DNA from: Favolaschia claudopus
Lineage: Eukaryota; Basidiomycota; Agaricomycetes; Agaricales; Mycenaceae
Assembly (NCBI GenBank): GCA_037176885.1
Contig: JAWWNJ010000105.1
Span: 1-64,000, forward strand
Direction of reading: 5' to 3'
Length of the DNA stretch: 64,000 nucleotides
Positions within the stretch are counted from its first letter, which is position 1, and the number at the start of each line of letters is the position of its first letter. The notes beneath the pieces were generated by a model that saw only the letters and a program-made list of their open reading frames with translations, did no database searches and was not told the DNA's origin. Below are positions 9,170-30,943 of this stretch, one piece after another. The position numbers and the translations under genes were made by a program.

Positions 9170-10966
9170 TGTAACGACTGGCCATTTTTGCGCGTTATAT
9201 CTGGCTATTTTAAGTCAAGTGCGGCCCTAAACAACCCAACTACCCGCCACGACTATAGTCTTACTCGACTATCAATAGGAAGTCAGTACCTCTGTTGGTG
9301 ACACTAAGGAGGGTCAAAGTGAGCTCCGAGCTGTTGACCGTAAAACCCATCACAGGAGAAAGGCATTATATTAATAGCCTACTGCAGTACTATGGATCTG
9401 TTCCATAACAGAACCCTCAGAAGAGTGACGAAGAGTCAAGTACTTGTGTACTACGGACTTAGACGAAGGTCTACAAGGATGTAGGAGGCGCCGCGGAGGC
9501 TATCAGAGTCAACATCAGTCAAAGGACAGATGCCGCGGGCTGCCGACTATAAATAGACGGCTGGAACAGCGGAAAGGGATCTCATACAGGAGATGCCGGT
9601 GCTGGGATCAGAAGGCAGAATTATGGCAAGACATGAGGTCTTTGACAGGAGTAATGATGGTGTGATGCTGAAGCCGAACAAGTGCGGCAACTTCATTAGA
9701 AATCTATTTCTATATTGGAGTCAGCGCGGATGACTTGGTGGCTTGATAAATTGGACAACAGACGAGCCTGTGATATTGCGAGTGAATTGGAATGTCCCAA
9801 GAATAGTCTTAGGAGTTATTAGAGGCGTTGATGGCACCACCGGAAGGGTTGCCGCCAGTGACGGATTGACGGGATCACCAATGATGGCGTTCCGCGGGCT
9901 TCCGCAATTCAGTGATTCAACCGTGGGAGTCATAATTGCTGACTTTCTACCGTTGGATCGACAAGCCAAGAGGCTGCCGAAGGTCCTCCGGGACCCCCAA
10001 ATACCAATATACCATCTCTCTACTCAATTGGATCGACATTGCTTACTCTGTACTATTTATGTGATGTATTTCTTGGCATTAGTATAAAAGGACCTGTATT
10101 TCTCGTTGAGCTGGAGGACATCGCGCTCAGTCTACTGGACAGCGTTGGTGAACTCAGGCAGCAACGTAGAGGCATATATAAAGATATTGTCTACTCGTTT
10201 GTCTTAATAGAAATTGTGTTGAAGTTCAGTTCGAGTGTGAATCTAAGCATCGTTTCGAGAGTGTTCACCCGCGGAGGCTTTGCATTCGAGTAGCTTTGTC
10301 GTGGCCTTAGTGTGCAAGGAACTGCCTGCCTCTACTGCCCGCGGACTGTCTATTTCGTTGTAAGGATACGTGTGCTCGAGAGTGAACTAGTATCTCCCTG
10401 AGTCTGAGGAAGAGTGGAACTGTCCATCTGCTGAAGCATTGCGTTGGGACTGCTGGCGCATAACCGGAAGAGATCTGATTAGTCCTCGTCTGAAAGGCTT
10501 GTGCTATATAAAGGAGTGTCAAAGGTCCCTGGAATTTGGAGGTTCAGGTCTATAGCGTAACTGGCGCTATAAGAATTGTGCATTCTGTCGCGGAAACTGT
10601 CTGTGGCCATTGTTTCAATCTCGCCCTGATATTCAACTTCGTTGGGTATCTTGTATCCTACTGTTTATAGTTCCTATTTTTAGGAAAGGTCCGCGGACGG
10701 AATCACTTCCATCTACGGTGTGTGAGAGCGTGTTTTGTGCAAGGTTCTTACTTGCAAGTCGACTTATATCCTCGTCACTGTGACATCTGGATTTCGGATC
10801 GAACCCCACGAACTCTTCGAGAGACATTTGAGTGTATCTTGTGGAGATATTTGTGTTGTAGTGTTGTGTGTGTTGGTTGATTGTGTTATATATATATTTT
10901 GGTGGTAGATTCTCTGCTGCGCTATATTTAGCACTTCAGTTGATATATTCAAGTGTCAGCGTTACA
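9170..10966 (+). repeat. 5' long terminal repeat, 1797 bp
   Basis: It starts TGTAACGACTGG and ends CAGCGTTACA; the six terminal bases form an inverted repeat (TGTAAC/GTTACA). All bases compared match the right-hand copy at a constant offset of 19,977. Long for a fungal LTR. It contains six CCGCGG motifs (9491, 9533, 9892, 10269, 10339, 10691) and several TATA-like boxes. The small open frames inside are not likely to be genes because the same sequence must serve promoter and terminator roles. Confidence 0.97.
9533..9555 (+). promoter_or_regulatory. Candidate LTR promoter: CCGCGG next to a TATA box
   Basis: CCGCGG at 9533-9538 is followed nine bases later by TATAAATA at 9548-9555, giving a compact activator-site plus TATA arrangement in the presumed U3 part of the LTR. 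Two other TATA-like boxes (TATAAAAG at 10083-10090 and TATATAAAG at 10505-10513) also precede the gag region, so the actual start site is not settled. The copy in the right LTR is at 29510-29532. Confidence 0.4.
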
Positions 10967-10968
10967 TC

Positions 10969-10985
10969 TGGAGCCCACCGCGAGG
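10969..10985 (+). promoter_or_regulatory. Candidate tRNA primer binding site
   Basis: TGGAGCCCACCGCGAGG begins two bases after the left LTR. The leading TGG can pair with the CCA end of a tRNA, and the position is right for minus-strand priming. The tRNA identity was not determined. Confidence 0.6.
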
Positions 10986-11043
10986 GGTTCGGTGGTAATT
11001 TGTTGATAAAACAAAACGCGTTGCTGTAGTTGGGAGAGTCTAG

Positions 11044-12930
11044 AGAAGGGACTTTCCTGGGTTGTCGAGAATTCCAGCCCAAACAAATCCTCGTACTAGA
11101 AAGACGTCGAGGAGAGGCAGACACCAGCGTAGCCCGTCTCCATTAAATACAGGAGCAGGTTCCAGGAGTTTGCTAGAGCAAGCCAGGGTTGCACTACAAG
11201 AACCCGCTCAAACGTCGACTTCAAGGAACAGTCTTATACCCGAGTCTGTAAATTGGGGACCCTCGACGTCTGGCAGAAAACCGCGTACGACCAAAAATTC
11301 CAGTACAGGACGGTCGTCTAGTTCGTCACCAGTTAAGAAGAGAAGGAGAGCGCGTTCCGCGGAAGTTATAAATACTTCTGCAGCATTACCCTTTGAGGGA
11401 CACGCAACCCACTCGGACGGCGAGCTATCTGATCATTTGAATCAGACCATCGAGGCTATTTCGAACTCCGTAGCCAAGATAAACCCCCCACAAACAAACA
11501 CTATGGCTACCTACGACGAGATTGATAAGAGCAAGATCCCGGATATTTTTGGGAGACATAACCTGAAATTCGATGACGAAACAGGGGATTTGCCCAAGTA
11601 TTTGGAAGGGATCGAAGATATCATCGCGAAGCAAGGAAAGCTTAGTGAGCAGAGCAAGAAGTGGATAGCACACCACTATGCGAACAGTAAAGTGCAGAAA
11701 GAATGGCAGGCTTTGCCCACCTATACGAATGGAACGTATGAGGAATGGAAGGCGGAATTGATGGATGCTTATCCTGAAGTTCGTGCAGTAGAGAAAGGTT
11801 CCCGCGCGGGCTGGGCGTCTTTCTTGAAACAGTATACAGACCGTCCAGTGAGAATAGACGAGGAAGTTGAATTTGCCAACTATTGTCGAAAGTTCCGCGG
11901 ACGAGTTGCAGTGATGAACAAGGACCGAGAGATGCTCTCAAGGCGCGAGTTGGCGCAAGACTTTTTGAAAGGTATTCACCCTACCTTCAGGGAGACTCTT
12001 CGCAATATCGTGCTGGCCAGAAGTCCGACGGAACTTACTTCGTATCAGCGAGCAAAATCTGAATATGAAGCGCTGCCTGCGAACAAAGGAAAGGCCTATA
12101 AACCGGCCTACACTCACCCTGATGACCTGTACGAATGGGCAGACTTTGAGGAAATATTGAAGTCGTTGATAAAAAGTAATGACTCTATTTTCTTCACAAC
12201 TCCCTCGGATACAAAGAGGAAGGCTGTTCTATTTTCGGGTAGTTCAGAGGGTGGAGATGAAGCTGCCAAGTTGAAGGCTAGATTGGAGAAGCTTGAGGCT
12301 GATTCCAAAGCCAGAGAGGAGAAAATTCTCCAGTCGAGTAAGGAGATTGAGGACAAAATGGAAAAGACCCTTGCTAATCATCTGGACAAGTTTACGACGG
12401 ACCAAAAACAGGTCATGTCCAAGATGCATGAAGCCTTGACGAAAGGGACTTCCAATTATCCTAGTCGTCCTGCAGAAAGAAGAGAATACGGTGGTGACAG
12501 ACCATCGTATGCACCGGATAGGCCGCCTCTTAGAGAAGGCAAGCCTACGGGCTGTTACTATTGTTGGGATCCTTCGCATTATGTTGCGGACTGCAAGCAC
12601 AGAAGGGATGATATTACTGGGGGCCTGCTAATCCTGAAAGATGGGCGTATGTTCTTCTATGATGGAAAGGCTTTGCCGCGGGAACCCAAGAATAAGAGCT
12701 ACATGACCAAAGTGCGGGATTACTATAACAATCGTACTCAGGTGTATTATAACCAAGAGGCGTTTGAGTATTATTACGCTAGTGACCCCACTGCACCGGC
12801 CGCGGAGTCGTTTGCGAGTGAATCCAGGGAAGAGTCAGACTCTCCTGCCACCGCGGATAGACTGGACAGAATCGAGGAGTCTGTTGCAAAGATAGCGCAG
12901 TTTATGGCGGCACAGAAGGATTTTCAGTGA
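11044..12930 (+). CDS. gag: Gag polyprotein with CCHC zinc knuckle
   Basis: Open from the stop at 11041-11043 to TGA at 12928-12930. Numbered from the TTG codon at 11062, the C-terminal part has a zinc knuckle CYYCWDPSHYVADC beginning near residue 498 (CX2CX4HX4C), which binds genomic RNA in retroelements. The middle has the helical, charged character of retrotransposon capsids and a coiled-coil-like Lys/Glu-rich stretch near residues 395-460. The first 147 codons from 11062 contain no ATG; the first in-frame ATG is at 11503. That upstream part is basic and Ser/Thr-rich with a nuclear-localisation-like PVKKRRRAR near residues 90-98. Translation may begin at 11503 or at a non-AUG codon upstream. 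A GGATTTT heptamer lies one codon before the stop. Confidence 0.9.
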   Translation, partial: RRDFPGLSRIPAQTNPRTRKTSRRGRHQRSPSPLNTGAGSRSLLEQARVALQEPAQTSTSRNSLIPESVNWGPSTSGRKPRTTKNSSTGRSSSSSPVKKRRRARSAEVINTSAALPFEGHATHSDGELSDHLNQTIEAISNSVAKINPPQTNTMATYDEIDKSKIPDIFGRHNLKFDDETGDLPKYLEGIEDIIAKQGKLSEQSKKWIAHHYANSKVQKEWQALPTYTNGTYEEWKAELMDAYPEVRAVEKGSRAGWASFLKQYTDRPVRIDEEVEFANYCRKFRGRVAVMNKDREMLSRRELAQDFLKGIHPTFRETLRNIVLARSPTELTSYQRAKSEYEALPANKGKAYKPAYTHPDDLYEWADFEEILKSLIKSNDSIFFTTPSDTKRKAVLFSGSSEGGDEAAKLKARLEKLEADSKAREEKILQSSKEIEDKMEKTLANHLDKFTTDQKQVMSKMHEALTKGTSNYPSRPAERREYGGDRPSYAPDRPPLREGKPTGCYYCWDPSHYVADCKHRRDDITGGLLILKDGRMFFYDGKALPREPKNKSYMTKVRDYYNNRTQVYYNQEAFEYYYASDPTAPAAESFASESREESDSPATADRLDRIEESVAKIAQFMAAQKDFQ

Positions 12931-12958
12931 TTCCGATGAGGGAGACTCGCTCGCGGAA
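12918..12958 (+). promoter_or_regulatory. Candidate gag/pro -1 frameshift signal
   Basis: In the gag frame the heptamer reads G GAT TTT (12918-12924), followed by CAG and the gag stop TGA. A -1 slip places the ribosome in the protease frame, open here from 12861. After a 6-nt spacer, TTCCG (12931-12935) can pair with CGGAA (12954-12958), with an inner GAG/CTC pairing. A heptamer of the G GAU UUN kind is known at a retroviral pro/pol junction. Slippage itself is inferred. Confidence 0.6.
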
Positions 12959-14312
12959 AGCTCCTGAGGATCCGAAAGCCAAAGACCGCGTTCCAGAAAA
13001 ACAGAAAAACCAACAAAAAGAAACAGTAGCCGAGAAAAATAATGGGAAGGTGCCCATTAAGCCAGCCAGAGAGAATAGAGTTGAAGTGTTGCTACCGAAG
13101 CGTTCCACTCAACCTACGAGGAAAGTCACCGTTGAAGAAGTCAGTGATTCTGAGGACGAGTCGGTTGAGGTCAGAAGGAAGAAAAGAGGAGAAGAACTTC
13201 CGTTCAAGGATGTGAAACCTCTGTCTGACCCTCCCGTACGACCCGCGTTCCCGCGAAAACCAGCAGAGGAGCAACATGGCCAAGGGTCATCAGGTTCACG
13301 AAGAACAAGAGTGCCTAAAGATACTCAGCGGCGAGACAAAGCTACCGCGGAGATCGCAGACGCTATTCGGGAAACTGTGATACCAGTCAAAATAGGCACA
13401 TTGCTGGATAGTAACGAGATGCTCCGGAAAACTCTTGAGATTGGGGGTCCGCGGAAGAACAAAGCTAAATTTATGAAGACTACTTCTGGTGATATTGTTC
13501 CTACCAAGGTGCACAACTTTGTAGTCCAAAGGGTGCTTGAGGATGAAGACTCAGACTCTGAGAGCCCCGCGGATGATGAAAGTGAAGCTGAGGATAACGT
13601 TCGAGTTGAGACAACAACTTGTGAAGTTGTAGATGAGGATGGAAAGACTGTGTCGGTGTTGATGTTTGACACGTTCCCTGAATTGGTTACCTCCAATGAT
13701 CATGATTTACCGGAGGGAAGCGTTATTTGTGGGGACCCTGTCCTTCAATACTATGAGTCTCTACCAGAGGGAGAAAAAGCGAAAGCTGTTAAAGTCCCGG
13801 CCGCGGGCTCCTCTGCAAAGCTCAGATGCATTCATCCGTCAGTGAATGGCAAGTATGTGGAAGCCATTACGGATAGCGGCTCGCAGATTGTATCAATGAA
13901 TGCTCAGTTGGCCAAGGAAATTGGTTTGACTTGGAATACAAATATAGTCTGTGAGATGGTTGCTGCGAATAGCCAGATTCAGTCCACCTTGGGCTTGGCT
14001 ATAAATGTGCCGTTTAATTTTGAAGGGATAGTGATGCACCTTCAAGTTCATATTATTGATGAGGTGCCTTATGAAGTTCTTTTGGGACGCCCCTTCGAAA
14101 TTTTGTCAGAAGCTGTGTTTGCGAGCAAGAGAACCGGCGAAGTCGAGATCACAATTACGGATCCGCGCACAGGGAACAAAAATACCTTTGCAACCTCTCA
14201 GAGGGGGGTCAAGATAGATCGAGACACAGGAAAGCCAGTCCAGCCAGCTCCCGCGGAGACCAAACCGGATTTTTGCAAGTCTTCGAGGAACTCAAAGATG
14301 GGGGAGAAGTAA
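12924..14312 (+). CDS. pro: Protease (aspartic) domain in its own frame
   Basis: The frame lies -1 relative to gag, and no ATG is needed if it is entered by frameshifting (the first ATG is at 12936). The N-terminal two thirds are acidic and low-complexity. The protease core starts near 13830: YVEAITDSGSQIVSM carries the catalytic DSG triad (GAT at 13872-13874), and EVLLGRPFEIL matches the ILG strand that follows in retropepsins. The enzyme acts as a homodimer to cleave Gag and Pol. The frame closes with TAA at 14310-14312, 39 nt after a second GGATTTT heptamer. Many CCGCGG motifs (13345, 13449, 13567, 13801, 14251) lie inside the coding sequence. Confidence 0.85.
   Translation, partial: SVIPMRETRSRKAPEDPKAKDRVPEKQKNQQKETVAEKNNGKVPIKPARENRVEVLLPKRSTQPTRKVTVEEVSDSEDESVEVRRKKRGEELPFKDVKPLSDPPVRPAFPRKPAEEQHGQGSSGSRRTRVPKDTQRRDKATAEIADAIRETVIPVKIGTLLDSNEMLRKTLEIGGPRKNKAKFMKTTSGDIVPTKVHNFVVQRVLEDEDSDSESPADDESEAEDNVRVETTTCEVVDEDGKTVSVLMFDTFPELVTSNDHDLPEGSVICGDPVLQYYESLPEGEKAKAVKVPAAGSSAKLRCIHPSVNGKYVEAITDSGSQIVSMNAQLAKEIGLTWNTNIVCEMVAANSQIQSTLGLAINVPFNFEGIVMHLQVHIIDEVPYEVLLGRPFEILSEAVFASKRTGEVEITITDPRTGNKNTFATSQRGVKIDRDTGKPVQPAPAETKPDFCKSSRNSKMGEK
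14267..14297 (+). promoter_or_regulatory. Candidate pro/pol -1 frameshift signal
   Basis: In the protease frame the heptamer is again G GAT TTT (14267-14273). A -1 slip makes the next codon start at 14273, exactly where the pol frame continues. After a 7-nt spacer, CTTCGAG-GAA-CTCAAAG (14281-14297) can form a seven-pair stem with one C-A mismatch and a 3-nt loop. Sequence, spacing and direction match the gag/pro junction. Confidence 0.6.
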
Positions 14313-15781
14313 TGGCCGCGTTTGAGTACAACGACCATGGGGAGTTGGTGTGCACAGGATATGGTTTACCGAAAGACGGGGATGTTGTTACGCAGGATGA
14401 CAGGACGATGGCATATTTATTGGCGTCTAGGGACGCATTTGCAGGAGATAAGAATGCTAGTGTATTGTTGAATCAATACGCGGGGCAGGTAGAGAAAGAT
14501 AAAGGCACAGATGTCTTCTTGTTCACGGAATCTGGAAGCCCGGGAAGCCCGAGAAAATCGAACCGTGGAAAGCATGCACCTAATCCGGGTGATAGCTCGG
14601 CTAAGTCTGTGTTTGCCTACATGGAGCGAGATTCCCGCGTGAATGATGATAAAGATAGTTCCGCGGAGGCGGCGGACCGTGCGCCGAAAGTGAACCGTAG
14701 AAAGCGAAAATACAAGAAGAAAAAGAAGAAGAAGAAGTCTAAGAAGACTTCGAAGGCAGAGGGAGCTAAGACAGTCCCTGCTGCGAAGGGGAAGCTGAAT
14801 TTTGAAGTACCGGTGCCGGAAGTACCAAGAGAGCAATTTATTTTTGGAAATTTGGGCATCTCTATGGGAAAACAGCGAGTATTTGCTACTAAGAAGTACA
14901 AACCGGTCGCGGAAAAGATTAAGCCTATCCTTGGAAAAGTGGATGAGAAGTTCAGGATTGTGCGGAATATCACGGGGGACCCTTTGAAGGATATGCCAAA
15001 AATAGAAACGGATATTCCTGAGATTCACCCAGTAGGAAGATATACCGCGGAGCGAATGGAGGCATTTGAAAAGACTCATAACACTGGGTTCTTATTGCCT
15101 GAAGAGATGAAGTTGCTTCATCATTTTATGATGTTGCATAACGAGCATTTCGCCTGGGAAGAGGATGAGCGAGGGCAATTCAAACATGAATATTTCCCGC
15201 CCGTTGATATGCCTGTGGTACCACATACACCATGGGTATGCTCGCAAATTCCAATTCCGCCTGGACATTTTGAAGAGTTCTGCCGCATCATCAAGTCGAA
15301 ATTAGATGCTGGGGTGTATGAACCATCCAACTCGTCCTACAGGTCACCTATTTTTGCGGTGATAAAGAAAGATGGAAAGTCATTGAGAATTGTACACGCG
15401 TTAGAGAGGTTGAATGAAGTCACAATTCAACACTCTGGGGTACCTCCAGCCACGGAGAAGCTAGCAGAACATTTTGCTGGTCGAGCGTGCGGAGCTTCGT
15501 TGGATATGTTTGTCGGATATGATAATAGGGACTTAGCGGAATCTTCAAGGGATTATACGACCTTCCAGACGCCGTTTGGGGCACTGAGGTTAGTAAAATT
15601 ACCGATGGGATGGACCAATTCTGTTCCCGTGTTTCACGAGGACGTTTGTACCATCTTGAGAGATGAAATGCCGCATGTAACAATCCCTTACATAGACGAT
15701 GTACCTGTCCGCGGGGGGACCTACGAGGTACGAGACAAAAGATGGCGATTGGGAAAGGATTGCTGCGAATCCTGGAATTAG
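14273..15781 (+). CDS. pol: Pol, N-terminal part: linker and reverse transcriptase
   Basis: This frame is -1 relative to protease. After an acidic and then Lys-rich linker (poly-Lys near 14705-14755), the reverse transcriptase begins near 15180. Motifs include SPIFAVIKKDGKSLRIVHA, SLDMFVGYDNRDL with the first catalytic Asp, FQTPFGALRLVKLPMGW, and YIDD at residues 473-476 (15689-15700) with the other two catalytic Asps. The frame then breaks in a run of six G at 15713-15718; the polymerase continues one base later in the frame that runs to 18284. Five G would keep it open, so this is either a real inactivating insertion or a sequencing error. Confidence 0.92.
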   Translation: MQVFEELKDGGEVMAAFEYNDHGELVCTGYGLPKDGDVVTQDDRTMAYLLASRDAFAGDKNASVLLNQYAGQVEKDKGTDVFLFTESGSPGSPRKSNRGKHAPNPGDSSAKSVFAYMERDSRVNDDKDSSAEAADRAPKVNRRKRKYKKKKKKKKSKKTSKAEGAKTVPAAKGKLNFEVPVPEVPREQFIFGNLGISMGKQRVFATKKYKPVAEKIKPILGKVDEKFRIVRNITGDPLKDMPKIETDIPEIHPVGRYTAERMEAFEKTHNTGFLLPEEMKLLHHFMMLHNEHFAWEEDERGQFKHEYFPPVDMPVVPHTPWVCSQIPIPPGHFEEFCRIIKSKLDAGVYEPSNSSYRSPIFAVIKKDGKSLRIVHALERLNEVTIQHSGVPPATEKLAEHFAGRACGASLDMFVGYDNRDLAESSRDYTTFQTPFGALRLVKLPMGWTNSVPVFHEDVCTILRDEMPHVTIPYIDDVPVRGGTYEVRDKRWRLGKDCCESWN

Positions 15782-18284
15782 ACGATTTATCTGGGAACAT
15801 CTCGAGAATTTGAATCGGGTTGTGACTAGAATGGCTTATGCCGGAGGAACTTTTTCAGGGAAGAAGTTGGTCCTCTGTGCGGATGAGTTTGAAGTTGTAG
15901 GGCATATTTGCTCTTACCGCGGAAGAATTCCCGATCCTAAGAGGGTGGACGTTATTAATAACTGGGGTTCCTGTGACTCTTTCACGCAAGTGAAGGCGTA
16001 CTTGGGCACGGTTGGTGTTCTGAGGAGCTTTATTGAAGGGTACGGCGACATTGTTGCACCTATCAATGAGTTAACGAAGAAGGACGTTCCCTTTGTATGG
16101 ACCGCGGACTGTGATGAGGCACAGGCCAAAATTAGAGAAAGGTTGAAAAACTGCCCAGCTCTAAAACCCCTGCGGTACGACTGGGATTCGGACATAGTAA
16201 TTCAAGTGGATACTTCATGGAGAGCTGTAGGAATTATTATCTACCAGCTAGACCCAGATGATCCTAAGAAGAAATACTTTGCACGATTTGCGAGTATAAC
16301 GTTAGGGAAGACCGAGGCGAACTATTCGCAACCTAAACGAGAATTGTACGGGTTGATGAGAGCTCTAGAGGCCATGTATTATTGGATTTTCGGAGCAAGG
16401 AAGCTTGTGGTTGAAACCGACGCGTTATACATCAAGGGCATGTTGAAAAACCCTGGAATGGGCCCCAACGCCACGATTAACCGCTGGATTGAAAAGATCT
16501 TGATGTTCCATTTTAAGCTGAAGCATGTCCCTGGTGAAAAGTTTGCACCCGACGGGTTATCAAGGAGAGATCCTTTCCCTGGGGATGAACAATTCAAAAA
16601 TTCGGAAGAGGGTTATGACCAAAATGAACCTCCCGAGGACCATGAGGACGTTTCCGCGGAAGGCCCACAGCCGTTGGAATTCGAGGACTTTAAACACCTT
16701 ATTGATACCAGAGGTGGATATTTCCAGTCGGAGGAGGAACAGCCAGAAATGGTGGACGTGGATGCAGTTTGTATGGATGATTTCCAGCGTGATTGCGAGA
16801 GTGCCAGAATGACTGAAGCTAATCTGGCGAGAGCACGCAGAGAAGCGTACTCGAAGGAGAATAAGCAGATCCCGGAGTATATTTTAATGACGGAGCCTCT
16901 GATTCCAAATTTAGAATTGAAATGGGATGAGTCGAAGCGAGAGCCTTACGATGAAGAGCATCGTTCGGATTGGATGAAAAAGCGAGATGCTAAATTACCA
17001 TTAGTAAAGGAATGGCTAGCGGACCCTATGAAAAGGCCCGCGGGAATGAATGATGATGCAGAGTATAGAAGTTTTATGCGCTTCGCCTCACATTTCTTTT
17101 TGAAAGGGGGGAGGATGTATAAGAAATCTTTTGGCACTGCGAATCAGTTAGTTGTTGACAAGGAACACCGCATGTACATGATGAAGGCTGCTCACGACAG
17201 TCTGGGTCACCGCGGAAGTTATGCAACTAGAGAATTGATTACGCTGCGATTCTGGTGGCCAGGAATAGAAGCAGATGTATTTTGGTACATTGCGTCTTGC
17301 GACGCTTGCCAAAACCGACAACATACACTGTTGAAAGTCCCGCCAGTTTTGACCCATACTCCAAGTCTATTTCAGGTCATCCATACCGATGTAATGGTAA
17401 TGGGGCAAGTGTCCAATAAATGTGGACTAGTAGTTGATGCTAGGGACTCGTTGAGTTCTTGGTTAGAAGCGAGACCGCTTGTGAGAGACACGGCTCACGC
17501 AATTGGAATGTTCCTATTTGAAGAGATAATTTGCCGTTGGGGTTGCCCAAAGCAGATTGTTACGGATAATGCGGGGCAGTTCAAGAAAGCTGTGGAATGG
17601 TTGAAACAGAAATACGGAATACCAAATATTCAGATTTCACCGTACAACTCTCAAGCGAACGGGAAGATTGAAAGCGGACACTTCCAAATGCGTCAGGCAT
17701 TGTTCAAAGCGACTGGCAAGAACCCGTCTAAATGGTTCTGGTTCTTCCATGTTATGCTTTGGTCAGACAGAGTTACGGTTAGAAAAGGATTAGGTTGTTC
17801 ACCTTATTTTGCGGTCACTGGAGCGCATCCAATTCTACCGTTGGATATTGAGGAAGCTACTTGGTTGGTTGAAATACCAGGTCGAGTGTTGACGACCGCG
17901 GAACTGATAGGGCTAAGAGCCAGAGCTTTAGCAAAGCATGTTGCCCATGTTGAACACATGAGGAAGCGTGTAGATCATGCTAAAATGGTTCAAGTCCGTA
18001 AACTCGAACGGTACAATGAACATACGATTAAAAACTATGATTTCAAACCGGGAGATCTGGTTCTCGTGCGCCACACTGAAGTAGAGAAGTCTCTGAACTC
18101 TAAGATGGATCAGAAGGGGAGGTACCTTGGCCCAATGGTTGTTATAAGACGTACCAAGGGAGGAGCGTATATCCTAGCTGAAATGAACGGCGCGTTATTC
18201 CATGACAGGATAGCCGCGGGGCGTGTGGTTCCATACTTAGCACGTCGCCGAATGCAAATTCCGCTCAACATCCAAAATTTTTGA
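15699..18284 (+). CDS. pol: Pol, C-terminal part: end of RT, RNase H, integrase
   Basis: Continuation of pol in the next frame from the G6 run. The RT thumb region (NPGIRRFIWEHLENLNR, FSGKKLVLC) is followed by RNase H (VIQVDTSWRAVG, KRELYGLMRALEA, LVVETDALYI, PDGLSRRD) and integrase. Integrase has the zinc motif H499, H505, C535, C538 and the catalytic triad D565 (VIHTD), D624 (IVTDNAGQF) and E659 (ANGKIES), numbered from the ATG at 15699. A GPY/F-like C-terminal part follows (KPGDLVLVRHTEVEK, GRYLGPMVVIRR). These enzymes copy genomic RNA and insert the cDNA. Eight CCGCGG motifs lie inside, in two different reading-frame contexts. No chromodomain was seen. Confidence 0.93.
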   Translation: MYLSAGGPTRYETKDGDWERIAANPGIRRFIWEHLENLNRVVTRMAYAGGTFSGKKLVLCADEFEVVGHICSYRGRIPDPKRVDVINNWGSCDSFTQVKAYLGTVGVLRSFIEGYGDIVAPINELTKKDVPFVWTADCDEAQAKIRERLKNCPALKPLRYDWDSDIVIQVDTSWRAVGIIIYQLDPDDPKKKYFARFASITLGKTEANYSQPKRELYGLMRALEAMYYWIFGARKLVVETDALYIKGMLKNPGMGPNATINRWIEKILMFHFKLKHVPGEKFAPDGLSRRDPFPGDEQFKNSEEGYDQNEPPEDHEDVSAEGPQPLEFEDFKHLIDTRGGYFQSEEEQPEMVDVDAVCMDDFQRDCESARMTEANLARARREAYSKENKQIPEYILMTEPLIPNLELKWDESKREPYDEEHRSDWMKKRDAKLPLVKEWLADPMKRPAGMNDDAEYRSFMRFASHFFLKGGRMYKKSFGTANQLVVDKEHRMYMMKAAHDSLGHRGSYATRELITLRFWWPGIEADVFWYIASCDACQNRQHTLLKVPPVLTHTPSLFQVIHTDVMVMGQVSNKCGLVVDARDSLSSWLEARPLVRDTAHAIGMFLFEEIICRWGCPKQIVTDNAGQFKKAVEWLKQKYGIPNIQISPYNSQANGKIESGHFQMRQALFKATGKNPSKWFWFFHVMLWSDRVTVRKGLGCSPYFAVTGAHPILPLDIEEATWLVEIPGRVLTTAELIGLRARALAKHVAHVEHMRKRVDHAKMVQVRKLERYNEHTIKNYDFKPGDLVLVRHTEVEKSLNSKMDQKGRYLGPMVVIRRTKGGAYILAEMNGALFHDRIAAGRVVPYLARRRMQIPLNIQNF

Positions 18285-18534: not shown

Positions 18535-18590
18535 AGATTGTGGTGGTATGCGCCTCTGTAATCTTAAATTAGAACTTCTCCGCGGAAGGA

Positions 18591-19919: not shown

Positions 19920-21616
19920 TCAAGTCTAGAAGGCGGAAAGGTTTAACTGGAGAGCTATAAAAATAAACGCAGAGACATACCGCGGAACTAGCAGGGCGCA
20001 TAATGGGATCCTCGTTGTCGGCATGATGGATCTTCATGAGCTGCTCGAGCTGGTCATCCATCTCCTCGTAGGCGCGAAGCCAGTAGCGATACTTGAAGGA
20101 AGCGAGGGCCATGTTGCGGCGGAGGTAGCGCTCCCGAGCCTTGAAACCTTGCGCGTCCAAGTGCTTGAGTTGGTTCTGAGAAACCTTCCAGGTCTTGTTG
20201 ACATCGTCCGGATGCATGATGGCGATGAGGTCCTTGTCCATGGAGTCTATAATAAAATTTAGACGAAATTAGATCAAGGAGAAGATGAACTCGTACCAGG
20301 GACTTTGGGCTCGTAGTCGAGGTCGACGTCATCCGGTTCGGTACGGGCACGCTTGTTGCTGCGGTTGGACACAGGGTTCAACGACAAAGCAGGCTATGAG
20401 CGAGAATTAAGCAGAGAAACAGAGTTGACGAATATTTCACGCACCATAAGTGGTTCCGCGGGCGCCATCTACAACAATTGATGAACGTTAAGCGAGAATT
20501 CAACCGTGGGATATGGGTTACGTACCTTCTCGTCCTCGTCAGGACAAGTGGAAGATGTGTCGGAGTTCTTCGCCTTGGGGCCTTTGCCCTAATAAAACGA
20601 TGTTATAAAAATAGAACAAAGTGAAAGGGCGAACGCACAGGAACTTTACGAACATTTTTGAACATGTCCTCTGGAACGGGATCGTCAATGATGCGCACGG
20701 ATTTGCCGTCGTCTTGAGGAGCCTTACCGGCAGGGATACCGTCCTTGGGTTTGACAGGGCAGTTGTCCTGGCCGTGCTGGTGAGAAGAGCAAGACGAGCA
20801 AACGGAAATCTGGGTGAATGAAGAGGAAAGTGCAGAGGGATAAAAATAGACGCACAGTGTCGTTCTTGACCTTGGGCGCACTATTCTTCTGGAAGGAGAG
20901 ACCAGGGGGCAGAGACGAGCCTCCTGCGCGATAGTTGGCTCCCATGGCAGCGATATAGAGAGGGTTGATTCTACCTTCGTCCTTGTCGAGATCCATCTGG
21001 AGTTGGTTAATACCATAGATAATCTTCGTAACGTCTGAGGAATACCTGATCAGCGACGGAAGCTTCCTCCGCGGAGTCGTCGTCCCCGGAATCGTCGATG
21101 ACTTCAACAGACTTACCCTGCATTATAGAGGACAGTTCAGGACCAGGAGGCATGCGACGAACACGAGAAAGCACCTGTTGAACTTGAGCTTTAGCACGGT
21201 GGCCCTTGATGGCTGCCGCGGCCTTGTCGCGCTTGCTATTCTTGGCGTTGTGGTAGTTGTTGAGCATGCGGTCGATAGCGCCAAGCTGGGAAGTAGGGAT
21301 CTTGAACTTGGAGATCTTGTACTCGTCCCTCATAGCGTTGGAGGCGGCAGTAAGAGCATTGACGACCTTCTCGTTGGAGGGGTGCTGAAGGGACTGAGCG
21401 AATAGCTTGAAGTCCGACTAAAAATAGACAGGGTTAGCGCGGAAAGCGTTAAGACATGCAAAAATATGGACGAACCGCCGCGGCTGCGAACGTGTTGAGC
21501 GTAGAGTGAATGACAGCCGCAGGGAGAGAGTCTCTGAGGGCGACGACCCGTTGAAAGTCGCGTTCAGCTTCAAGGATAAGGTTGGACGCTTCGATGAGCG
21601 CAGAGCGTGGTGCCAT
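19920..21616 (-). CDS. Antisense cargo gene 2: unknown protein, about 426 aa, nine exons
   Basis: Exons (minus) 21616-21476, 21417-21046, 20996-20856, 20809-20639, 20588-20526, 20468-20445, 20393-20297, 20246-19981 and a terminal two-codon exon ending at 19920. All introns are 46-58 nt with GT-AG ends, and phases agree throughout. The N-terminus is helical (SALIEASNLILEAERDFQR). The middle has an acidic VEVIDDSGDDDSAEEAS; exon 4 has CSSCSSHQHGQDNC, a possible partial zinc site; exon 6 is only 24 nt. Exon 8 is a charged helical region (WKVSQNQLKHLDAQGFKAR, MALASFKYRYWLRAYEEMDD). No family was recognised. CCGCGG motifs lie 214, 235 and 527 bases upstream of the ATG. The many intact exons argue that the gene is under selection. 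Confidence 0.75.
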
Positions 21617-22649
21617 GGCATGCGATGAAGGCCTGTAGGCGACGAAGAAATGAGCAGAGAACAGAAGTCAATTTATAGTTTTTGACTATGACAGCTTGGT
21701 TAGATTATTAAGGACCGGCTAGGATCGTAAAAACGAGCCAAGGCTGTTGGTTGCACCTCTAACTGAATTGAATATGCGAGGACGCATCTTTTTTCTTTAG
21801 TGAGGGGGAGAATATAGAGCAACAGACAACCGCGGGAGGGTATTGCGCCACCGCGGGCCTTGCAAATTTACCCATAAAGAGACAGGGAAATTTCGTTTTG
21901 CTAAAATTAGACGATTTTGAGCTGAAGCGTTGCAAAAAGCCAAGTTGCGGAAGAGTTTTAAGGCTGAATTATGTCGATCGGTTTCTATATGATCGATTTT
22001 AAAAGAGGCAGTTAGGGATGATAGTGGTTATTCTATTAAGCAAGAGGCTTGTGGAATATACATGCGGGAGTACAGAACTTTACTTTGAGTATACGTTCAG
22101 AGGTACTTAAAGAGAGAAAGTTTAAGCTGTGCTATAAATAGCCCGCGGAGAGCCAGAAAAAGAGATTTTGGCTGAGAGACAAGTATTGACGACTTGTAGT
22201 GAAGTGTCAATTAAGGTCAGACGTGACTTCTGATGGAAGTTAAGGAGAAATGAAAGTTGTATTAAGTTTGAACTGAAGGATGGGACTTGACGATTTCTTA
22301 GGAAAGTCGGTCATCACCGATAACTTGATGATGATCAATTGATGGCCTAACGCTTGATTTTTGATTCAATCAGTTGTTGGCTCCCACCGTTCAAAAAGTT
22401 TAGAGCAAAGTGCATACAAGGCACTGTGAGATTGAGATCCTATACTACCTATAGTTATACATGTGGTAAACTATGGAGGGATCTATAGACTACTATGGGA
22501 CAAGCTTTTAGTAAGGAAAAATATCTTCGTTTGTTTAGAGACTGGAAGAGGACAGTCTGTTACAGGTGGCAGCGATGATATATGTAAAGCAATTAAAAGT
22601 ACGAACGTCCAGCAACGAGCAATGCACCACGAACACCAGCCCAAGACGC
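21617..22649. other. Intergenic region upstream of antisense gene 2
   Basis: About 1 kb with no gene. It holds CCGCGG at 21830, 21851 and 22143, the last directly after a plus-strand TATAAATA (22132-22139). It probably contains the promoter of gene 2 and the terminator of gene 1. Confidence 0.5.
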
Positions 22650-25296
22650 CTACCGCTTGCGTTTGGCCCCAGAGCTACTCCCCTCTTCACGATCCGGAGA
22701 AGGCGGACGAACTGGACGGGGTTTGACGTCTTTCTTCTCAAGAAGAGGGGCAGCACCAAACTCGGGGACAGGCTTCGCAGGAGAAGTGTCCGTGGAACGA
22801 GTTGGTCGACGAGGAGAAGGTCCAGGAGTTTCAGCCGCGGAAGAACCACCGGCCGCTGGAGCCTTGGACGAAGAGGCAATCAGACGGCCGTCGGTAGAAG
22901 GCGGCGCTGGCGGGGTGTGAATAAAGTCGCGCATCGCAGGGCCCGGAGTGAAACGATTGGAGATCCATGGCTGATATACATGACCCGTCGTTTTACCCGC
23001 GGCGTCGACTTGAGGAATAGCGGCCGAGGTTGGATTGTTATCGAGCATGATGAGCTCGGCGTCGACAACGTCGGAGGACTGGAAGACGGTGTTGTACAGT
23101 CCGCGGATGGCCTGTGCGTCGGACTCCCTCTCGAACAGAGAGTCGAAGGTGTCGTTACCAAGGCCCTCGTCCATGAGCTTGAAGAGATACGCGCCGTCGC
23201 GGTGGCCGCAGTGGAAACGATTCAAAGCTCGCGCGTACAGAGCACCTTGGATCATGAGCTCGTGGGTGTCGGTAAGGAGTGTGGACAGCTGCTGAGCAAG
23301 TCGGTGAGGAGAAACGTTCCAGTAGGGGAGCAGGTGTTCGAAGAGAGTGCGAAGTTGAGCCGGAGAGCACTTGTAAGAACAGACGTGGTGTCTGTCCGCG
23401 CAGAAGTTACAGACCTCGCTACCCGGAGCGCGCACACAAGCCTGCGTGCGGGAAGCGCAAGTCGCGCAGGGAAAGATTTCTGGCGAGAACCAGGGACCTG
23501 CGGTGACGCTCTGTACGAGCGCGGTGGGAATCTGTATCAAAGCTGCAGGAGGTACGGCGGTACCTGTGAATAAAGTCAGTAAATGGGATATTAAAAGATA
23601 AGAAAAGAGAAACGTACCGTCGGGCGGGAGTGAACGATAATGTTCGAGGAGTTGAGCTCGAGTAGTAATGGGCGCTGGAGCTGGCGATGAAGGCGCAGGT
23701 TCTTGTTCAGGCTCGGGCGCAGGCTCAGGTTCCGGTGACGGAGTGAAAAGGTCCTCGACGGGTTGCTAAGGAAAAGATGATTAAATGAGCAAAAGGAAAA
23801 GAATGAAGAAGACGTACCGTTTCTTTTTCTTTCTCCTTCGTCTTGGCCTTCTTGAAGGGCGGCGCGACGAGCTCGTCATCAGTAACTTCGTATTCGGGGG
23901 CGGCGACGATGCGCGGGATCTTGAAGTCCACCCCATATTGCTGTGTTTTTGCAAAAAGTACTGGCCGTGGCCAGAAACCTTTTGCAAAAACTTTCTTCCA
24001 TAAGCCGTTGGCCTTGTTTGCTTTGAGGGGATACACCCGGCTTCCCCGGCATCACTAGAAAACAGCCAGGCCGACGGCAGGTTTATTTCTCGTTGTTTGG
24101 TGTATGATGAGCAGGTCGTGCCGAGGCCCCGGCGCCAGAATTCGCGATGGGTCGGCTAAATTGAATATTATTGACTGATCTATAATTACAAATCAAATGT
24201 AGTAAATTAAGCGCCATCGGCGCTATAGCTAAATTAAGCGCCATTCGATACGGCGGCGGCGGCGCGCTCCTGCGTGCGTGGATATGGTGCAGGACGCCGT
24301 GGTCAGGCATACACACCGTGCTGGCGGGGTCGGAGGTGTGGGCACGACACCCGGCGGCGAGTACGACAGCGAGATGCGCGTACAGCGGCGGGGTGCAGGT
24401 CGGGCGGCAGGGCGCGCATATCGAGCGGTACGCCGGCGGGTACGCGTACGGGGGTGGGTACGACGGCGGGATGCGGATCCGGTGCTAGTCCGCGTACGGC
24501 AGTGGGGCGGTGGGTACACATACTGTGGCGGAATTCGCCTACAGCAGCAGGGAACAATGGTGGGGTGGGCGCGGGTGTCGTTACGGGTACAGACACAGTG
24601 CTGGGAGTCGGCGTGGGTACGGTACGGCGCCAGGGCCCCGCGCGCGTACAGATATGGCGGCGGCGACGGCGTGTGCGGGTGTGGCGTTGGGGTACAGATG
24701 CGGAAGCACGGATTGTGTGCGTGTGTGGAGGCGTGGTGCGTTGAGGTGTAGGGGCGGGGTACGCGGGTGCGATGAAGATGTGATGACGGGGGCGGGTACA
24801 AATATGTGTGGAGCGGCGGCGTCGGTAACGTGCTATATAATACTGTCAGTGGTCCGCCGAAGAGGGGTGAAGGGGGGAGGGGGTTGTGTTCCGCGACTCC
24901 ACGTGTCGGAGCGGCGTACTAACAGACGAGATATGGCAGTTGGGGGAAGGGAGAGGGAAGGAGGAAATACAAAAAGAGAGAAACTTACCCGCCTCAAATT
25001 GTCGTCGAAATCGTCCACTGGGGCCATAGATAACAACAAAGAGAAAGAAAGACAAAAGAGGCAAAAGGAACTTACCATGAAGAGTCCCCTGTCGACCACC
25101 GCATCCTCAGCTTGTAAATTCTCTGATATCATCCTCCAAAAGCAGCTCTTGATGCCCACCCGGAACGCCGACAGCGAAAGACTCGAGCACACCTCGTTGA
25201 GATGAGTAGTTGGTGGTGTGCTTGGTTGTGGTGAACGGGGAGATGCGCTGAATGTGGGACTGGATAGGGAGAGGGAGAAAGGCGGTGAGCTGGCAA

Positions 25297-25370
25297 ATGT
25301 GACGCGTGAGTCACATTGTCGGAACGGAATCCGACTGGCTGGTGAGTATCGGTCCGAAGAACCGATACTC
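25297..25370. other. Three consecutive perfect hairpins in the nested element
   Basis: ATGTGAC/GTCACAT (about 25297-25316), GTCGGA/TCCGAC (25318-25335) and GAGTATCGGT/ACCGATACTC (25344-25370, 10-bp stem, 7-nt loop) follow one another within 75 bases. They could be structural, binding sites or footprint remnants. Confidence 0.6.
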
Positions 25371-26047
25371 AACGCCGTCGTCTAAATCGGGAAGGTGGCC
25401 TATCAGCAATACAAAACCTGCAAATTCTACGGTCAGTTCGCTCATTGAGAAGGTACATATTAATGTTCACAATAGAGCCTACCTCTAGCTGCACTGTCAG
25501 TACTAAATCTGGTCAAAATCTATTTTATTCATACCGCATTTCTCAACTTCTTTGATGAAGACAATTTCAACTTCTCGACCATTTGTCGATGATCTGCCTT
25601 AAACTAATGGCCTGAAAAGTACTCTATATTGTCGGCAGTCATTCAAAAGTATTTGGGTCCCCCATAATGTAATTCTTATCAAGATATACTTACGCACATT
25701 TTTGGAATGTCTCTCAGAATATTCTCACTGCTGCTAGTGTTCTGTACGGGCTTTCGAGTTTGAACGCATGAAGAGCACATTTCATTTATGTCTGCTACAT
25801 TATATCTTGAGTTTGAGAGGAATTACGCAACTCGACTCAACAAGTTCATGGATCGAGCTTCAAAGCCGTGTAGTCGCATGGCCAATTTGCTCGAGTTTCA
25901 AGACCTCAAAATTTTCGACCTAGAAATTCATAAAAATACAAAAAAAATCAGAGGGGTGGCTGGAATACCCCTTACTGCATACCCATCTCAAATTAACCAG
26001 AAGTAGGTGTGGTTCAAGCTCCAACTCGTTGTCCGTGTCATTCGGCT

Positions 26048-26125
26048 CGTACGAGTTCGCTATAGTACTCGACGAGTTCGCTATAACACTCGACGAGTTC
26101 GCTAGCACTCGTAACGAGTTCGCTA
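26048..26125. repeat. Short tandem repeat, about 19-bp unit
   Basis: CGAGTTCGCTATARYACT-like units occur four times in a row with small changes, inside the nested element. Confidence 0.75.
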
Positions 26126-28308
26126 TATCGGACTTGGTCCGACTTGTCGGCCGACGGTCTTTTCGACGTCGCAATTAATCTGTTTCTTCGATTTTCAGGC
26201 TATTGTCAAGGTTGTTTGAGCTACTCATGTTTATTCCAACTACAATATGAACAATCACTATTTACAAAAGCACACAGACATTGAATGAGTTGAGTGAAGG
26301 TGTTTAGAGAGATATTCGGAGAGAAATATAGGGGTCACAGATATTGGTCGAGGCTCGATTGGATTTGTTGGCGCGGCTCACTCACGCCGTTGAAACGAGC
26401 ATCTAACAGAAACGAGTGTCGCCTTGCGCTCGACGCGGCGCGGCACGTGAGCGGAACGAACAGGCGAAGGGAGACGCGCTGACGAAAAAAGAGGACGTCG
26501 AGCGCACGAGTGGCACGGACGTGCGGCAGATGTGATTGCGGGCGGCGGTCGGTACGAATATAGCGGCGGGGTGCGCGGGTGCGGGTGTGGTTGCGGGGTA
26601 GGGCGGTGGGTATGGGGACGCGGTGGGGCAACGGTGTGGGCGGACACGACGGCGCGGGTTGGTGGTGCCTGCGTCGAAACGAGCACAACGCGTCGGTTGG
26701 CATCGCAAGGGCAAGGCTAAGCAAGCACGAACGAACGCGCGCCGGCTACGCACGCGCGGCAAACGAGGCGCGGGTGAGCGTATCGACGTATGGGAAGCAG
26801 GGTAGGTGGCGTTGAGTTCGGGGACGGATGGGTGGCGGCGCAAGCGAGATGGGCGTCGAGGGGCGCCAGAACGGCAGCCCGTGGTAGGTGTCAACGTCGG
26901 AAGTGAACACGGATGGGTTCGCGAGTGGGCGCGTAGCAGGGCAACCAAGCGAGCAGCGAGCGATTCAGTGGGCGGCGAGGTATTTTTGGAATGGGGATTG
27001 ACGTCGGAGAAGCAAATGCGCGAGCGAGCGCGTGGCAAACTCGCGAGTAAGCGGGTAGCGAGTAGGACTGCGAACGGGCGAGCGGGTGGGGGCGGGTGGT
27101 GGGCGGATGAGCGAGCCGCGAGGGCAGCGAATACGGAGCGCTGCCGAGTGCGAACACGGCGGTCAGCTTCGAACGAGTGGGTAGCGGTGCAGCGAGCACA
27201 AGCCCACGGGGCGTCGGCGTCGGAACGAGCGGGCGTCACGGGTGGCGGGGTGAGCGAGCGAGCGAAGGAGCAAAGAAGTAGAGAAGTGAGTTGTTTAGGG
27301 AGGGGGTAGCGGTCGGAGGCGTGAGCACGACGCCCCCAAGCGCCGCCACCGTAGGCAATGGTGGCGCGGGCGGGAACGAAGGCGGGGGCGGTGGGGATGG
27401 AGGAGGGTTGTGACAATGTCACGCGTAACATGGGACACGTTGCATGTTGACCGACGATTACGCCCGAAGCCCGATGTGCCCGAGGAGCCCGATGCGTCCG
27501 ATAAGCCCGACGATGCATCCGAAATCAATCCCCTGCGGCACGGCACAAAAAACCCATCAAATCAAAGATTGATGGGCTGATTTGATTAATTTTGAACTCC
27601 GCAGCCCTTGCCGCTGCCCCCCGCGGCAGGGATGACTAAGCCTGGGTGGACCCAGACATTTTTACAATGCATTTCTGGCAACGGCCAGTACTTTTTGTAA
27701 AAAGCCAACAATATGGGCTGTGAAGTCGTTAGGCAAGAGGTCGAGGTGGTCGCGGTCGGTGCCGAGCTCGTCTATACGTTCTTGAGAAGGACGGAGCGCG
27801 CGGTACGCGGGGATGAGTGCGGTTTGGCCCGGAACGGTCTTGGCGATCCCCTTGAAGACGTCGGAGATGGTGATCAAGAAGACCTCCACCGACTCTGGGA
27901 TGGCATCGAAGTTTTGACGGTACTCCAGCTGCAAGGAATGAAAGAATAAGCGATCAGTTAGAAGGATATAAAGAGACGACGTACGAAGACGGGAATAAGG
28001 TGTTCCACAGCCTCCAGCTGCTCTTCGTCGGGAGACGCGTGCGCGGGATCTTCAAAGAACGGGACAAGGGCGCGGGCGTCGTCGTTGTCGAAAGGAGCCC
28101 AGTATTTGGCCAAGGGATGCGTGTCGAGGAGCTCAGCGGAGTTGGAAGTGCTATTGCGGCCAGGGCCACCCTTGGTGGTGCCGCGACCACGCTTTCCGCC
28201 TTTAGCCTTGCCTCGAGCGGGGTGAGTGCCGGCTGTGGAGCGAGCGGTGCGTCGAGTGGTGGTAGCGGAAGCCGTAGACGGAGCTGGGGAGGCTTTACGA
28301 GGAGGCAT

Positions 28309-29136
28309 CGCCTGGCGACAAGCACCGGGGAAAAAGAAGTTGAATAGCGATGGAAGAATAGCGAGGGACTGCTCGGCGGCGTAGGCGTCGAGGAGCAATG
28401 AAGAATAAGAACCCAAGTAGTGACCACACGGTGTAAGACACTGAATGTGAAGGGATTGTTGTGGTAGGGAAGAAAGAGAAGTGGGCGCCAAAAAGCACCC
28501 ACTCAGTCTATAAGGCAAAACGGACTTAGAGAAAAATTCTCTAAGCCCACACGCCGTCAAAGAGGATTGAATTGAACCTTGGATGACTCACCTGCGAGAA
28601 GGCCAAGAGGTTTGATGAAAAGAAGACGAGCAGAAAAGAGAAGTCTCCGCAGTAATTAGAAGGAGGTTTTAAGTTTGATGAAAAACCTATTCTAAGAGCA
28701 ATTGAGTCGGTGGCCCCGGCGAGAGATAACACGGAGAGAGAGATAAGATAGCACGGAGGGTCGAGCGTACCTATGATTAGGGTTAGCGCTTGGACCGGAG
28801 TCGAAAATTTTGACCAAGTCGAAGAGATGAAGAGGAATGGGTGGAAAACCCCTGTCTCTACTCTTTCAGACAGAAAATGTCAGTGACGTAATAATGCCGT
28901 AATGGTGGTTGGCGTCCGCGGAAGCAAGCGTCTAAAAATAGACAGTCTGAGCGAGTAGTTCATGAGGACTTGACCAAAACAAGTCGCTCGAGGAAAAAGG
29001 AACAGTGAAGTAGTTTGCAGTTGGTCTAAAGATAGACGTCCGCGGGAGTTGTCATCCTTGCGGTCCACTAGATTTAAAGCCAAAAAAAGCACGGATTTTG
29101 GTGCAGGCTATAGACCGGGGACGGTCTAGATTTAGT
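28309..29136. other. Upstream region of antisense gene 1, next to the 3' LTR
   Basis: No gene is supported. It holds CCGCGG at 28916 and 29040 and two copies of a TCTAAARATAGAC motif (28932 and 29026). It is the likely promoter of gene 1 on the minus strand. Confidence 0.45.
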
Positions 29137-29146
29137 GAAGGGGAGA
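29137..29146 (+). promoter_or_regulatory. Polypurine tract
   Basis: GAAGGGGAGA lies directly before the right LTR, as required for plus-strand priming during reverse transcription. Confidence 0.75.
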
Positions 29147-30943
29147 TGTAACGACTGGCCATTTTTGCGCGTTATATCTGGCTATTTTAAGTCAAGTGCG
29201 GCCCTAAACAACCCAACTACCCGCCACGACTATAGTCTTACTCGACTATCAATAGGAAGTCAGTACCTCTGTTGGTGACACTAAGGAGGGTCAAAGTGAG
29301 CTCCGAGCTGTTGACCGTAAAACCCATCACAGGAGAAAGGCATTATATTAATAGCCTACTGCAGTACTATGGATCTGTTCCATAACAGAACCCTCAGAAG
29401 AGTGACGAAGAGTCAAGTACTTGTGTACTACGGACTTAGACGAAGGTCTACAAGGATGTAGGAGGCGCCGCGGAGGCTATCAGAGTCAACATCAGTCAAA
29501 GGACAGATGCCGCGGGCTGCCGACTATAAATAGACGGCTGGAACAGCGGAAAGGGATCTCATACAGGAGATGCCGGTGCTGGGATCAGAAGGCAGAATTA
29601 TGGCAAGACATGAGGTCTTTGACAGGAGTAATGATGGTGTGATGCTGAAGCCGAACAAGTGCGGCAACTTCATTAGAAATCTATTTCTATATTGGAGTCA
29701 GCGCGGATGACTTGGTGGCTTGATAAATTGGACAACAGACGAGCCTGTGATATTGCGAGTGAATTGGAATGTCCCAAGAATAGTCTTAGGAGTTATTAGA
29801 GGCGTTGATGGCACCACCGGAAGGGTTGCCGCCAGTGACGGATTGACGGGATCACCAATGATGGCGTTCCGCGGGCTTCCGCAATTCAGTGATTCAACCG
29901 TGGGAGTCATAATTGCTGACTTTCTACCGTTGGATCGACAAGCCAAGAGGCTGCCGAAGGTCCTCCGGGACCCCCAAATACCAATATACCATCTCTCTAC
30001 TCAATTGGATCGACATTGCTTACTCTGTACTATTTATGTGATGTATTTCTTGGCATTAGTATAAAAGGACCTGTATTTCTCGTTGAGCTGGAGGACATCG
30101 CGCTCAGTCTACTGGACAGCGTTGGTGAACTCAGGCAGCAACGTAGAGGCATATATAAAGATATTGTCTACTCGTTTGTCTTAATAGAAATTGTGTTGAA
30201 GTTCAGTTCGAGTGTGAATCTAAGCATCGTTTCGAGAGTGTTCACCCGCGGAGGCTTTGCATTCGAGTAGCTTTGTCGTGGCCTTAGTGTGCAAGGAACT
30301 GCCTGCCTCTACTGCCCGCGGACTGTCTATTTCGTTGTAAGGATACGTGTGCTCGAGAGTGAACTAGTATCTCCCTGAGTCTGAGGAAGAGTGGAACTGT
30401 CCATCTGCTGAAGCATTGCGTTGGGACTGCTGGCGCATAACCGGAAGAGATCTGATTAGTCCTCGTCTGAAAGGCTTGTGCTATATAAAGGAGTGTCAAA
30501 GGTCCCTGGAATTTGGAGGTTCAGGTCTATAGCGTAACTGGCGCTATAAGAATTGTGCATTCTGTCGCGGAAACTGTCTGTGGCCATTGTTTCAATCTCG
30601 CCCTGATATTCAACTTCGTTGGGTATCTTGTATCCTACTGTTTATAGTTCCTATTTTTAGGAAAGGTCCGCGGACGGAATCACTTCCATCTACGGTGTGT
30701 GAGAGCGTGTTTTGTGCAAGGTTCTTACTTGCAAGTCGACTTATATCCTCGTCACTGTGACATCTGGATTTCGGATCGAACCCCACGAACTCTTCGAGAG
30801 ACATTTGAGTGTATCTTGTGGAGATATTTGTGTTGTAGTGTTGTGTGTGTTGGTTGATTGTGTTATATATATATTTTGGTGGTAGATTCTCTGCTGCGCT
30901 ATATTTAGCACTTCAGTTGATATATTCAAGTGTCAGCGTTACA
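29147..30943 (+). repeat. 3' long terminal repeat, 1797 bp
   Basis: Same sequence as 9170-10966 with no difference noticed. It is followed by ACGG (30944-30947), which repeats the four bases before the left LTR. Confidence 0.97.

Follow-up and report, generated by a model that had tools for sequence, protein, structure and literature searches.

The 64,000-nucleotide stretch of Favolaschia claudopus DNA analysed here (contig JAWWNJ010000105.1, positions 1 to 64,000, hereafter the window) contains, at 9170-30943, a recently active Ty3/gypsy-type long terminal repeat (LTR) retrotransposon in which the six-base word CCGCGG is strongly enriched and is under purifying selection as a DNA word, not through the protein sequence. 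Downstream of pol and ahead of its 3′ LTR the element carries three intron-containing genes on the antisense strand, as well as one nested insert, and it may mark its own DNA. An earlier note, made from the sequence alone, had placed the element at 9491 to 30673, which lies within the wider limits found here, and had proposed that it encodes Zn2Cys6-like proteins that recognise its own copies through CCGCGG, by a logic comparable to that of plant VANDAL transposons. The motif excess, the selection at the DNA level and the Zn2Cys6-like antisense proteins of that proposal are upheld by our analysis, whereas the simple VANDAL/VANC analogy is not.

CCGCGG in the element and its surroundings

Between 9491 and 30673 CCGCGG starts at 50 positions, one of which (27621) lies in the nested insert, leaving 49 element sites, which start at 9491, 9533, 9892, 10269, 10339, 10691, 11357, 11895, 12676, 12800, 12851, 13345, 13449, 13567, 13801, 14251, 14661, 15045, 15709, 15917, 16102, 16654, 17038, 17210, 17896, 18214, 18326, 18580, 19593, 19906, 19980, 20456, 21069, 21216, 21478, 21830, 21851, 22143, 22835, 22997, 23101, 28916, 29040, 29468, 29510, 29869, 30246, 30316 and 30668. 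The 42,220 bp of flanks in the window hold 16. These numbers are close to those first estimated (about 49 and about 15), and the extended word TCCGCGGA, put at about eleven in the note, is found 11 times in the element and 12 times in the whole window. Other 6-bp palindromes do not exceed 10 occurrences each in the element.

With one LTR counted and the insert excluded, the element has 43 sites in 16,185 bp, compared with Markov expectations of 2.9 (order-1), 3.8 (order-2) and 12.9 (order-3), the last being inflated because the model includes the words of CCGCGG itself. Synonymous codon shuffling of four non-overlapping sense pieces gives about 1.8 expected sites, against 19 observed. The gene 1 exon taken alone has no clear excess (3 sites against 1.0 expected, with shuffles reaching 5), and in 25 gene 1 frames the excess is mild (44 sites against about 18 after shuffling; these sequences are related and four of them have no site). 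The sense sites occupy all three codon frames, with one dominant (14 of 21 counts, two sites in overlapping frames being counted twice), which fits the claim that the motif sits in different frames. Per kilobase there are 3.3 sites in the LTR, 2.6 in the 5′ part with gag, 2.8 in protease-pol, 3.0 in genes 2 and 3, 2.0 and 0 in the gene 1 block, and 0.26 in the nested insert. Regular spacing of the sites was not found, their coefficient of variation (0.92 vs 0.97) being that of random placement.

In 10 other copies the DNA downstream of the 3′ LTR, 55,252 bp in all, contains 7 CCGCGG, and seven other GC palindromes occur there 5-22 times each. In the genome searched (264.6 Mb, 460 contigs), two CCGCGG at a distance of 257-285 bp occur 797 times, and the reversed word, used as a control, gives 804 such pairs; the genome as a whole is therefore without CCGCGG enrichment.

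Retention of CCGCGG among copies and diverged families

Retention of the sites between copies is stronger evidence for selection than their number. We aligned a 9.6-kb portion of the window element's backbone with its counterparts in 11 other copies, and kept sites that were ungapped and compared in at least eight copies; 28 of 30 CCGCGG sites passed this filter, and all were intact in all copies (292 of 292 cells). In the same alignment other GC-rich 6-mers had a retention of 91.5% of cells, 550 of 752 being conserved in full; the corresponding figures for 6-mers with two CpG were 96.7% and 115 of 144, and the six bases adjoining CCGCGG sites were kept in 92-94%. Of 63 frequent 6-mers, none but CCGCGG, with its 28 places, was fully retained; 5 of 420 5-mers with 12-16 places also reached full retention. 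Simple tables give P values of 0.0003 for the comparison with GC-rich 6-mers and 0.005 for that with two-CpG 6-mers, which are guides only, since the copies are related. As CCGCGG is retained above neighbouring and matched 6-mers, selection acts on the DNA word, just as had been suspected from its placement in coding DNA.

The copies of the window element's own family (family 1) are not independent, their backbone sites being shared by descent, and we therefore sought diverged families. In family 2, with 88% identity in the part compared, all 10 of 10 sites are shared, against 147 of 265 control words. In family 3, pol is 84% identical to that of the window at the protein level and genes 2 and 3 are 28-56% identical. 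Its reverse transcriptase-integrase region (77.6% DNA identity) keeps 7 of 10 sites, against 62 of 240 other GC-rich words, and its protease (65% identity) keeps 2 of 5, against 6 of 125 control words. The antisense regions, 52% identical and of uncertain alignment, have 11 and 12 sites, of which one coincides in position, while 3 of 11 lie within 15 columns. A second family-3 copy keeps 7 of 12 sites in pol, where 69 of 344 control words are kept, and all four sites of its LTR-gag part, against 59 of 139 controls; four family-3 copies have 12-13 sites each in 4.0-4.5 kb, common by descent among those copies. Thus sites are kept where the families align, and are found at similar density where alignment fails. 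One further stretch (L046 of C92) was dropped as evidence: it has 3 sites over 4.5 kb, and neither gene 2 nor gene 3 has a match in it.

These data bear on the simplest alternative, that the sites are an artefact of composition or mutation, or of the shared ancestry of the copies. The order-3 expectation of up to 12.9, which includes the words of CCGCGG, and the sharing of sites by descent among near copies would speak for it, but retention above matched 6-mers and adjacent bases and the similar density in diverged regions already contradict it in large part. We reject composition or codon usage as the source, which the Markov models, the synonymous shuffling and the retention across copies all contradict, and regard the artefact explanation in general as scarcely credible.

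Promoter-like modules

CCGCGG is present upstream of the predicted starts of all three antisense genes, and in the LTR it sits 14 bp before a TATA-like box; both placements had been pointed out in the earlier note. In this promoter-like LTR module (9533..9556, + strand) CCGCGG is followed by CTATAAATAG, and at 10674..10696, also in the LTR, CTATTTTTAG is followed by CCGCGG. On the minus strand, CCGCGG adjoins CTATTTATAG upstream of antisense gene 2 (22132..22148) and CTATTTTTAG upstream of antisense gene 1 (28916..28941). Words of the form CTAWWWWTAG occur seven times in the element with one LTR counted (9547, 10674, 10922, 21418, 21901, 22132 and 28932), four of them at most 17 bp from a CCGCGG, and are absent from the 42 kb of flanks. 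The word at 21418 falls on a predicted intron end.

Instead of acting in chromatin, the word could have its role in the cDNA or RNA, where it might serve, for example, packaging, dimerisation or the building of the integration complex. Such a role would suit a self-complementary word whose sites span the whole transcribed unit, coding DNA included, but would account poorly for the sites that lie beside promoter-like boxes on the two strands and ahead of the antisense genes, or for their random spacing, and we consider it quite improbable.

The antisense Cys-cluster proteins

Zn2Cys6 proteins follow the spacing rule CX2CX6CX5-12CX2CX6-8C and contact CGG through a run of basic residues in the first loop, from Cys 2 to Cys 3. 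The cluster of antisense gene 1 (22653..28308, minus strand, start predicted, split here by the nested insert) is CX2CX6CX8CX2CX6C, and the Zn2Cys6 spacing is present in 25 of 25 gene 1 sequences, two of them identical. Antisense gene 3 (18590..19334, minus strand, start and exons predicted) has a second Cys6 cluster, CX2CX8CX8CX2CX6C, which departs from the rule in the first loop (CX2CX8C). The earlier description of gene 1 as having the canonical pattern and of gene 3 as a near variant was thus accurate.

The Zn_clus profile matches 6 of 20 members at E values no higher than 1, the lowest being 0.24. Profile matches to LEU3 are in register (E 1.8 and 0.49), with CHCHD1 ranked above it in the latter search (0.012). 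The nearest solved folds of the gene 1 domain are nearly all Zn2Cys6, including Put3, Leu3, Ppr1, Hap1 and Gal4, none of them significant, and the full-exon model is poor (predicted local distance difference test score, pLDDT, 44.8). The resemblance to the fungal regulators Pdr1/Pdr3 and Leu3 lies in the Cys spacing and in the word itself, which yeast Pdr1/Pdr3 recognise (PMC3091778). The gene 1 protein differs from them in its non-significant scores, in a first loop poor in basic residues, and in being encoded by a retrotransposon. The protein of gene 1, or that of gene 3, is a candidate CCGCGG binder.

An old gene 1 cassette in a young backbone

Gene 1 lies in a hypervariable cassette (21900..28900) that varies between copies whose backbones are 95-100% identical. 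Fifty-three listed pol copies are at 99-100% identity. In 43 of these 53 a gene 1 match lies 3.4-4.5 kb from pol, and 10 are without one among the matches listed, which comprise 110 scored of 186 candidates. Identity of gene 1 to the window in the 43 copies is 100% (2), 92-93% (2), 77% (1), 59-60% (8) or 30-34% (30). Six copies are 95-100% identical to the window, over the part compared, outside 21.9-29.1 kb; inside it, identity drops in five of them and not in C161. The C161 copy has the window's left flank at 99%, the same gene 1 block and a different right flank, and is therefore not independent of the window. In addition, the left flank of the window recurs in C365 with 100% identity and unchanged coordinates, and the 3′ LTR of C365 starts 3.8 kb nearer, so that the nested insert is probably missing there. 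C365 probably represents the second haplotype or a duplicated contig, and some copies and junctions may therefore have been counted twice.

In 13 of 14 family-1 pairs synonymous divergence (dS) ranges from 0.275 to saturation in gene 1, against 0.026-0.096 in pol; the exception is the pair of the window and C161, which share a left flank. Gene 1 alleles are thus much older than the backbone. Near alleles are conserved as proteins, the window and C81 differing with a nonsynonymous divergence (dN) of 0.004 and a dS of 0.33, while distant classes differ strongly (dN 0.9 between the window and C143). In 8 of 22 pairs the changes are nearly only synonymous (dN 0.002-0.024 with dS 0.28-0.64), and positive selection on the gene 1 protein as the source of diversity is unsupported by the pairs with unsaturated dS. 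Family 3 shows a parallel, with the backbone of the gene 2-3 region 94-97.5% identical and gene 1 47-77%.

We infer that exchange between copies, together with a rare-allele advantage, lies behind the old gene 1 alleles, and that gene 1 resides in an old, protein-conserved and exchanged cassette within a young backbone, which is new here. Gene 1 proteins that are nearly identical although their DNA differs greatly would be explained if the alleles thereby escaped homology-based silencing. Alternatively, an element-encoded factor might bind the sites to repress copies and so control copy number, rare gene 1 alleles escaping it and old ones thereby persisting. Old alleles in near-identical backbones, and their parallel in family 3, are what such self-limitation would produce, but its presumed target, CCGCGG, is the same across allele classes, and several alleles differ almost solely at synonymous sites, which protein-specific immunity would not favour. 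We consider self-limitation improbable.

Element architecture and integration sites

The two LTRs (9170..10966 and 29147..30943, both + strand) are 1797 bp long, identical at 1797 of 1797 positions, bounded by TGTAACG...CGTTACA, and the 5′ LTR contains six CCGCGG. The target-site duplication ACGG lies at 9166..9169 on the left and, matching it, at 30944..30947 on the right. The sense frames comprise a gag-like open frame (11044..12930), assigned by position with no significant Pfam match, an aspartic protease frame (12861..14312; PF13975, E 2.4e-7), a reverse transcriptase frame (14075..15781; PF00078, E 0.003, this RVT_1 match being under its own cut-off) and a frame with RNase H and integrase (15696..18284; PF17917 and PF17921). 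In a profile scan of these frames the order protease, reverse transcriptase, RNase H, integrase is that of Ty3/gypsy elements. Reverse transcriptase and integrase are in two frames in the window copy; 44 of the 53 listed copies have a single 1486-aa frame, which in the one copy checked begins after the protease and extends through the reverse transcriptase. Antisense gene 2 (19880..21616, minus strand) has several exons, its start and exons being predicted. The nested insert (23929..27720) is 3.8 kb long with 46-bp inverted ends (23932-23977 and 27672-27717), and uninterrupted, insert-free copies of gene 1 exist in the genome.

Insertion sites were collected genome-wide from exact matches to the LTR ends. 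There are 214 LTR 3′ ends, 83 of which run into the primer-binding side, and 169 LTR 5′ ends, 68 of which follow internal DNA; subtraction leaves 131 and 101 junctions. NCG follows 124 of the 131 and CGN precedes 97 of the 101, and the family therefore integrates at NCGN. This form of the 4-bp target site is found at 221 of 232 junctions, CG making up 6.5% of flank dinucleotides. CpG-directed integration at NCGN is likewise new here.

The window flanks contain two DUF6535 genes, a DUF4419 gene, a weak F-box-like match and a Helitron-like piece, a gene content that points to an agaricomycete. The DUF6535 genes (38777-40197 and 60781-62196) are in opposite orientation and 80% identical in DNA, and a 48-bp tandem repeat of 5.6 copies lies at 5800-6067.

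Discussion

We tentatively favour self-recognition or anti-silencing by an element-encoded reader of CCGCGG, a reading we hold at somewhat below an even chance. The roughly 43 to 49 selected sites would form a landing pattern along the element, occupied by a DNA-binding protein that acts as a dimer and is most probably an antisense-encoded Cys6 protein of the element itself, from gene 1 or gene 3. Dense occupancy would tag the DNA as self and keep the element transcribable, with promoter-side sites next to TATA-like boxes starting transcription and body sites holding chromatin open or blocking silencing. Gene 1, as the presumed effector, would sit in a separate cassette, its old alleles being exchanged between copies.

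To our knowledge, discrimination of self from host DNA by a mobile element has been worked out only for plant VANDAL cases. VANDALs are DNA transposons, whereas the present element is an LTR retrotransposon. The likeness is that of a mobile element with extra proteins and many copies of a short word, for which self-specific recognition is proposed. In PMC5735166 and PMC10398659 the VANC motifs of Arabidopsis VANDALs are described as tandem repeats in non-coding DNA that change with the protein. Of the VANDAL-like logic first suggested, word enrichment therefore holds, and tandem non-coding motifs and co-variation of motif and protein do not.

In the present element the sites run through coding DNA and are not tandem, and CCGCGG is constant while gene 1 changes. 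The most serious point against an element-encoded reader is that the word stays the same in one and the same backbone while gene 1 diverges to 23-30% identity. Moreover, basic residues are scarce or absent in the first loop of the gene 1 cluster (for example ASRTQA, AAHGRP, VLNYAE, AFNFIT and VSHLRR), whereas the stretch from Cys 5 to Cys 6 is more basic. Nor did the copies with another gene 1 class reveal an alternative word: in a gapped half-site search of the window element and 10 copies, CCGCGG ranked top in 11 of 11.

Constancy of CCGCGG across diverged gene 1 and gene 3 is what would be expected if an unchanging host protein, such as a Zn2Cys6 regulator or chromatin factor, read the word; the element would then have accumulated the sites as enhancers or for protection, the antisense proteins doing other work. 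The word is moreover a site of host regulators in yeast (PMC3091778). Promoter activation, however, would not need sites spread so evenly through coding DNA at a distance from promoters, and no matching enrichment is seen in the flanks sampled or in the count of pairs across the genome. A host reader is a possibility to be taken seriously, though on balance a somewhat unlikely one.

Closer in build are the plant Retand-lineage elements, gypsy-type retrotransposons in which antisense genes lie downstream of pol and ahead of the 3′ LTR; DNA binding is suggested for their products, which carry TRP28 (PF04195), as stated in PMC11963269. Position and strand of the antisense genes agree with ours. 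The passages of that paper used here mention tandem repeats for Retand and no element-wide conserved short word, and a profile scan of five unspliced antisense frames of our element at E up to 1 did not match TRP28. Searches of PubMed Central full texts, assessed by the listed titles and the openings of the abstracts and with most subscription papers outside this scope, gave no paper on an LTR retrotransposon that is studded with CCGCGG or encodes Zn2Cys6 proteins.

Going beyond an element-encoded reader as such, the data can be combined into a more specific and rather doubtful picture. The element would carry an element-wide six-base address, conserved inside coding genes and read by a self-encoded protein whose gene sits in a separately inherited, exchangeable cassette; the DNA of this cassette would diversify while the protein is kept, as if escaping homology-based silencing until able to protect the element.

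The CCGCGG system makes the question of how self is told from host DNA testable, since it offers one word, two candidate readers, many young copies and diverged families. Young copies in one genome carry different gene 1 alleles, and diverged families share CCGCGG. The cassette raises a second question, namely why one gene of a retrotransposon retains old alleles while the rest is young.

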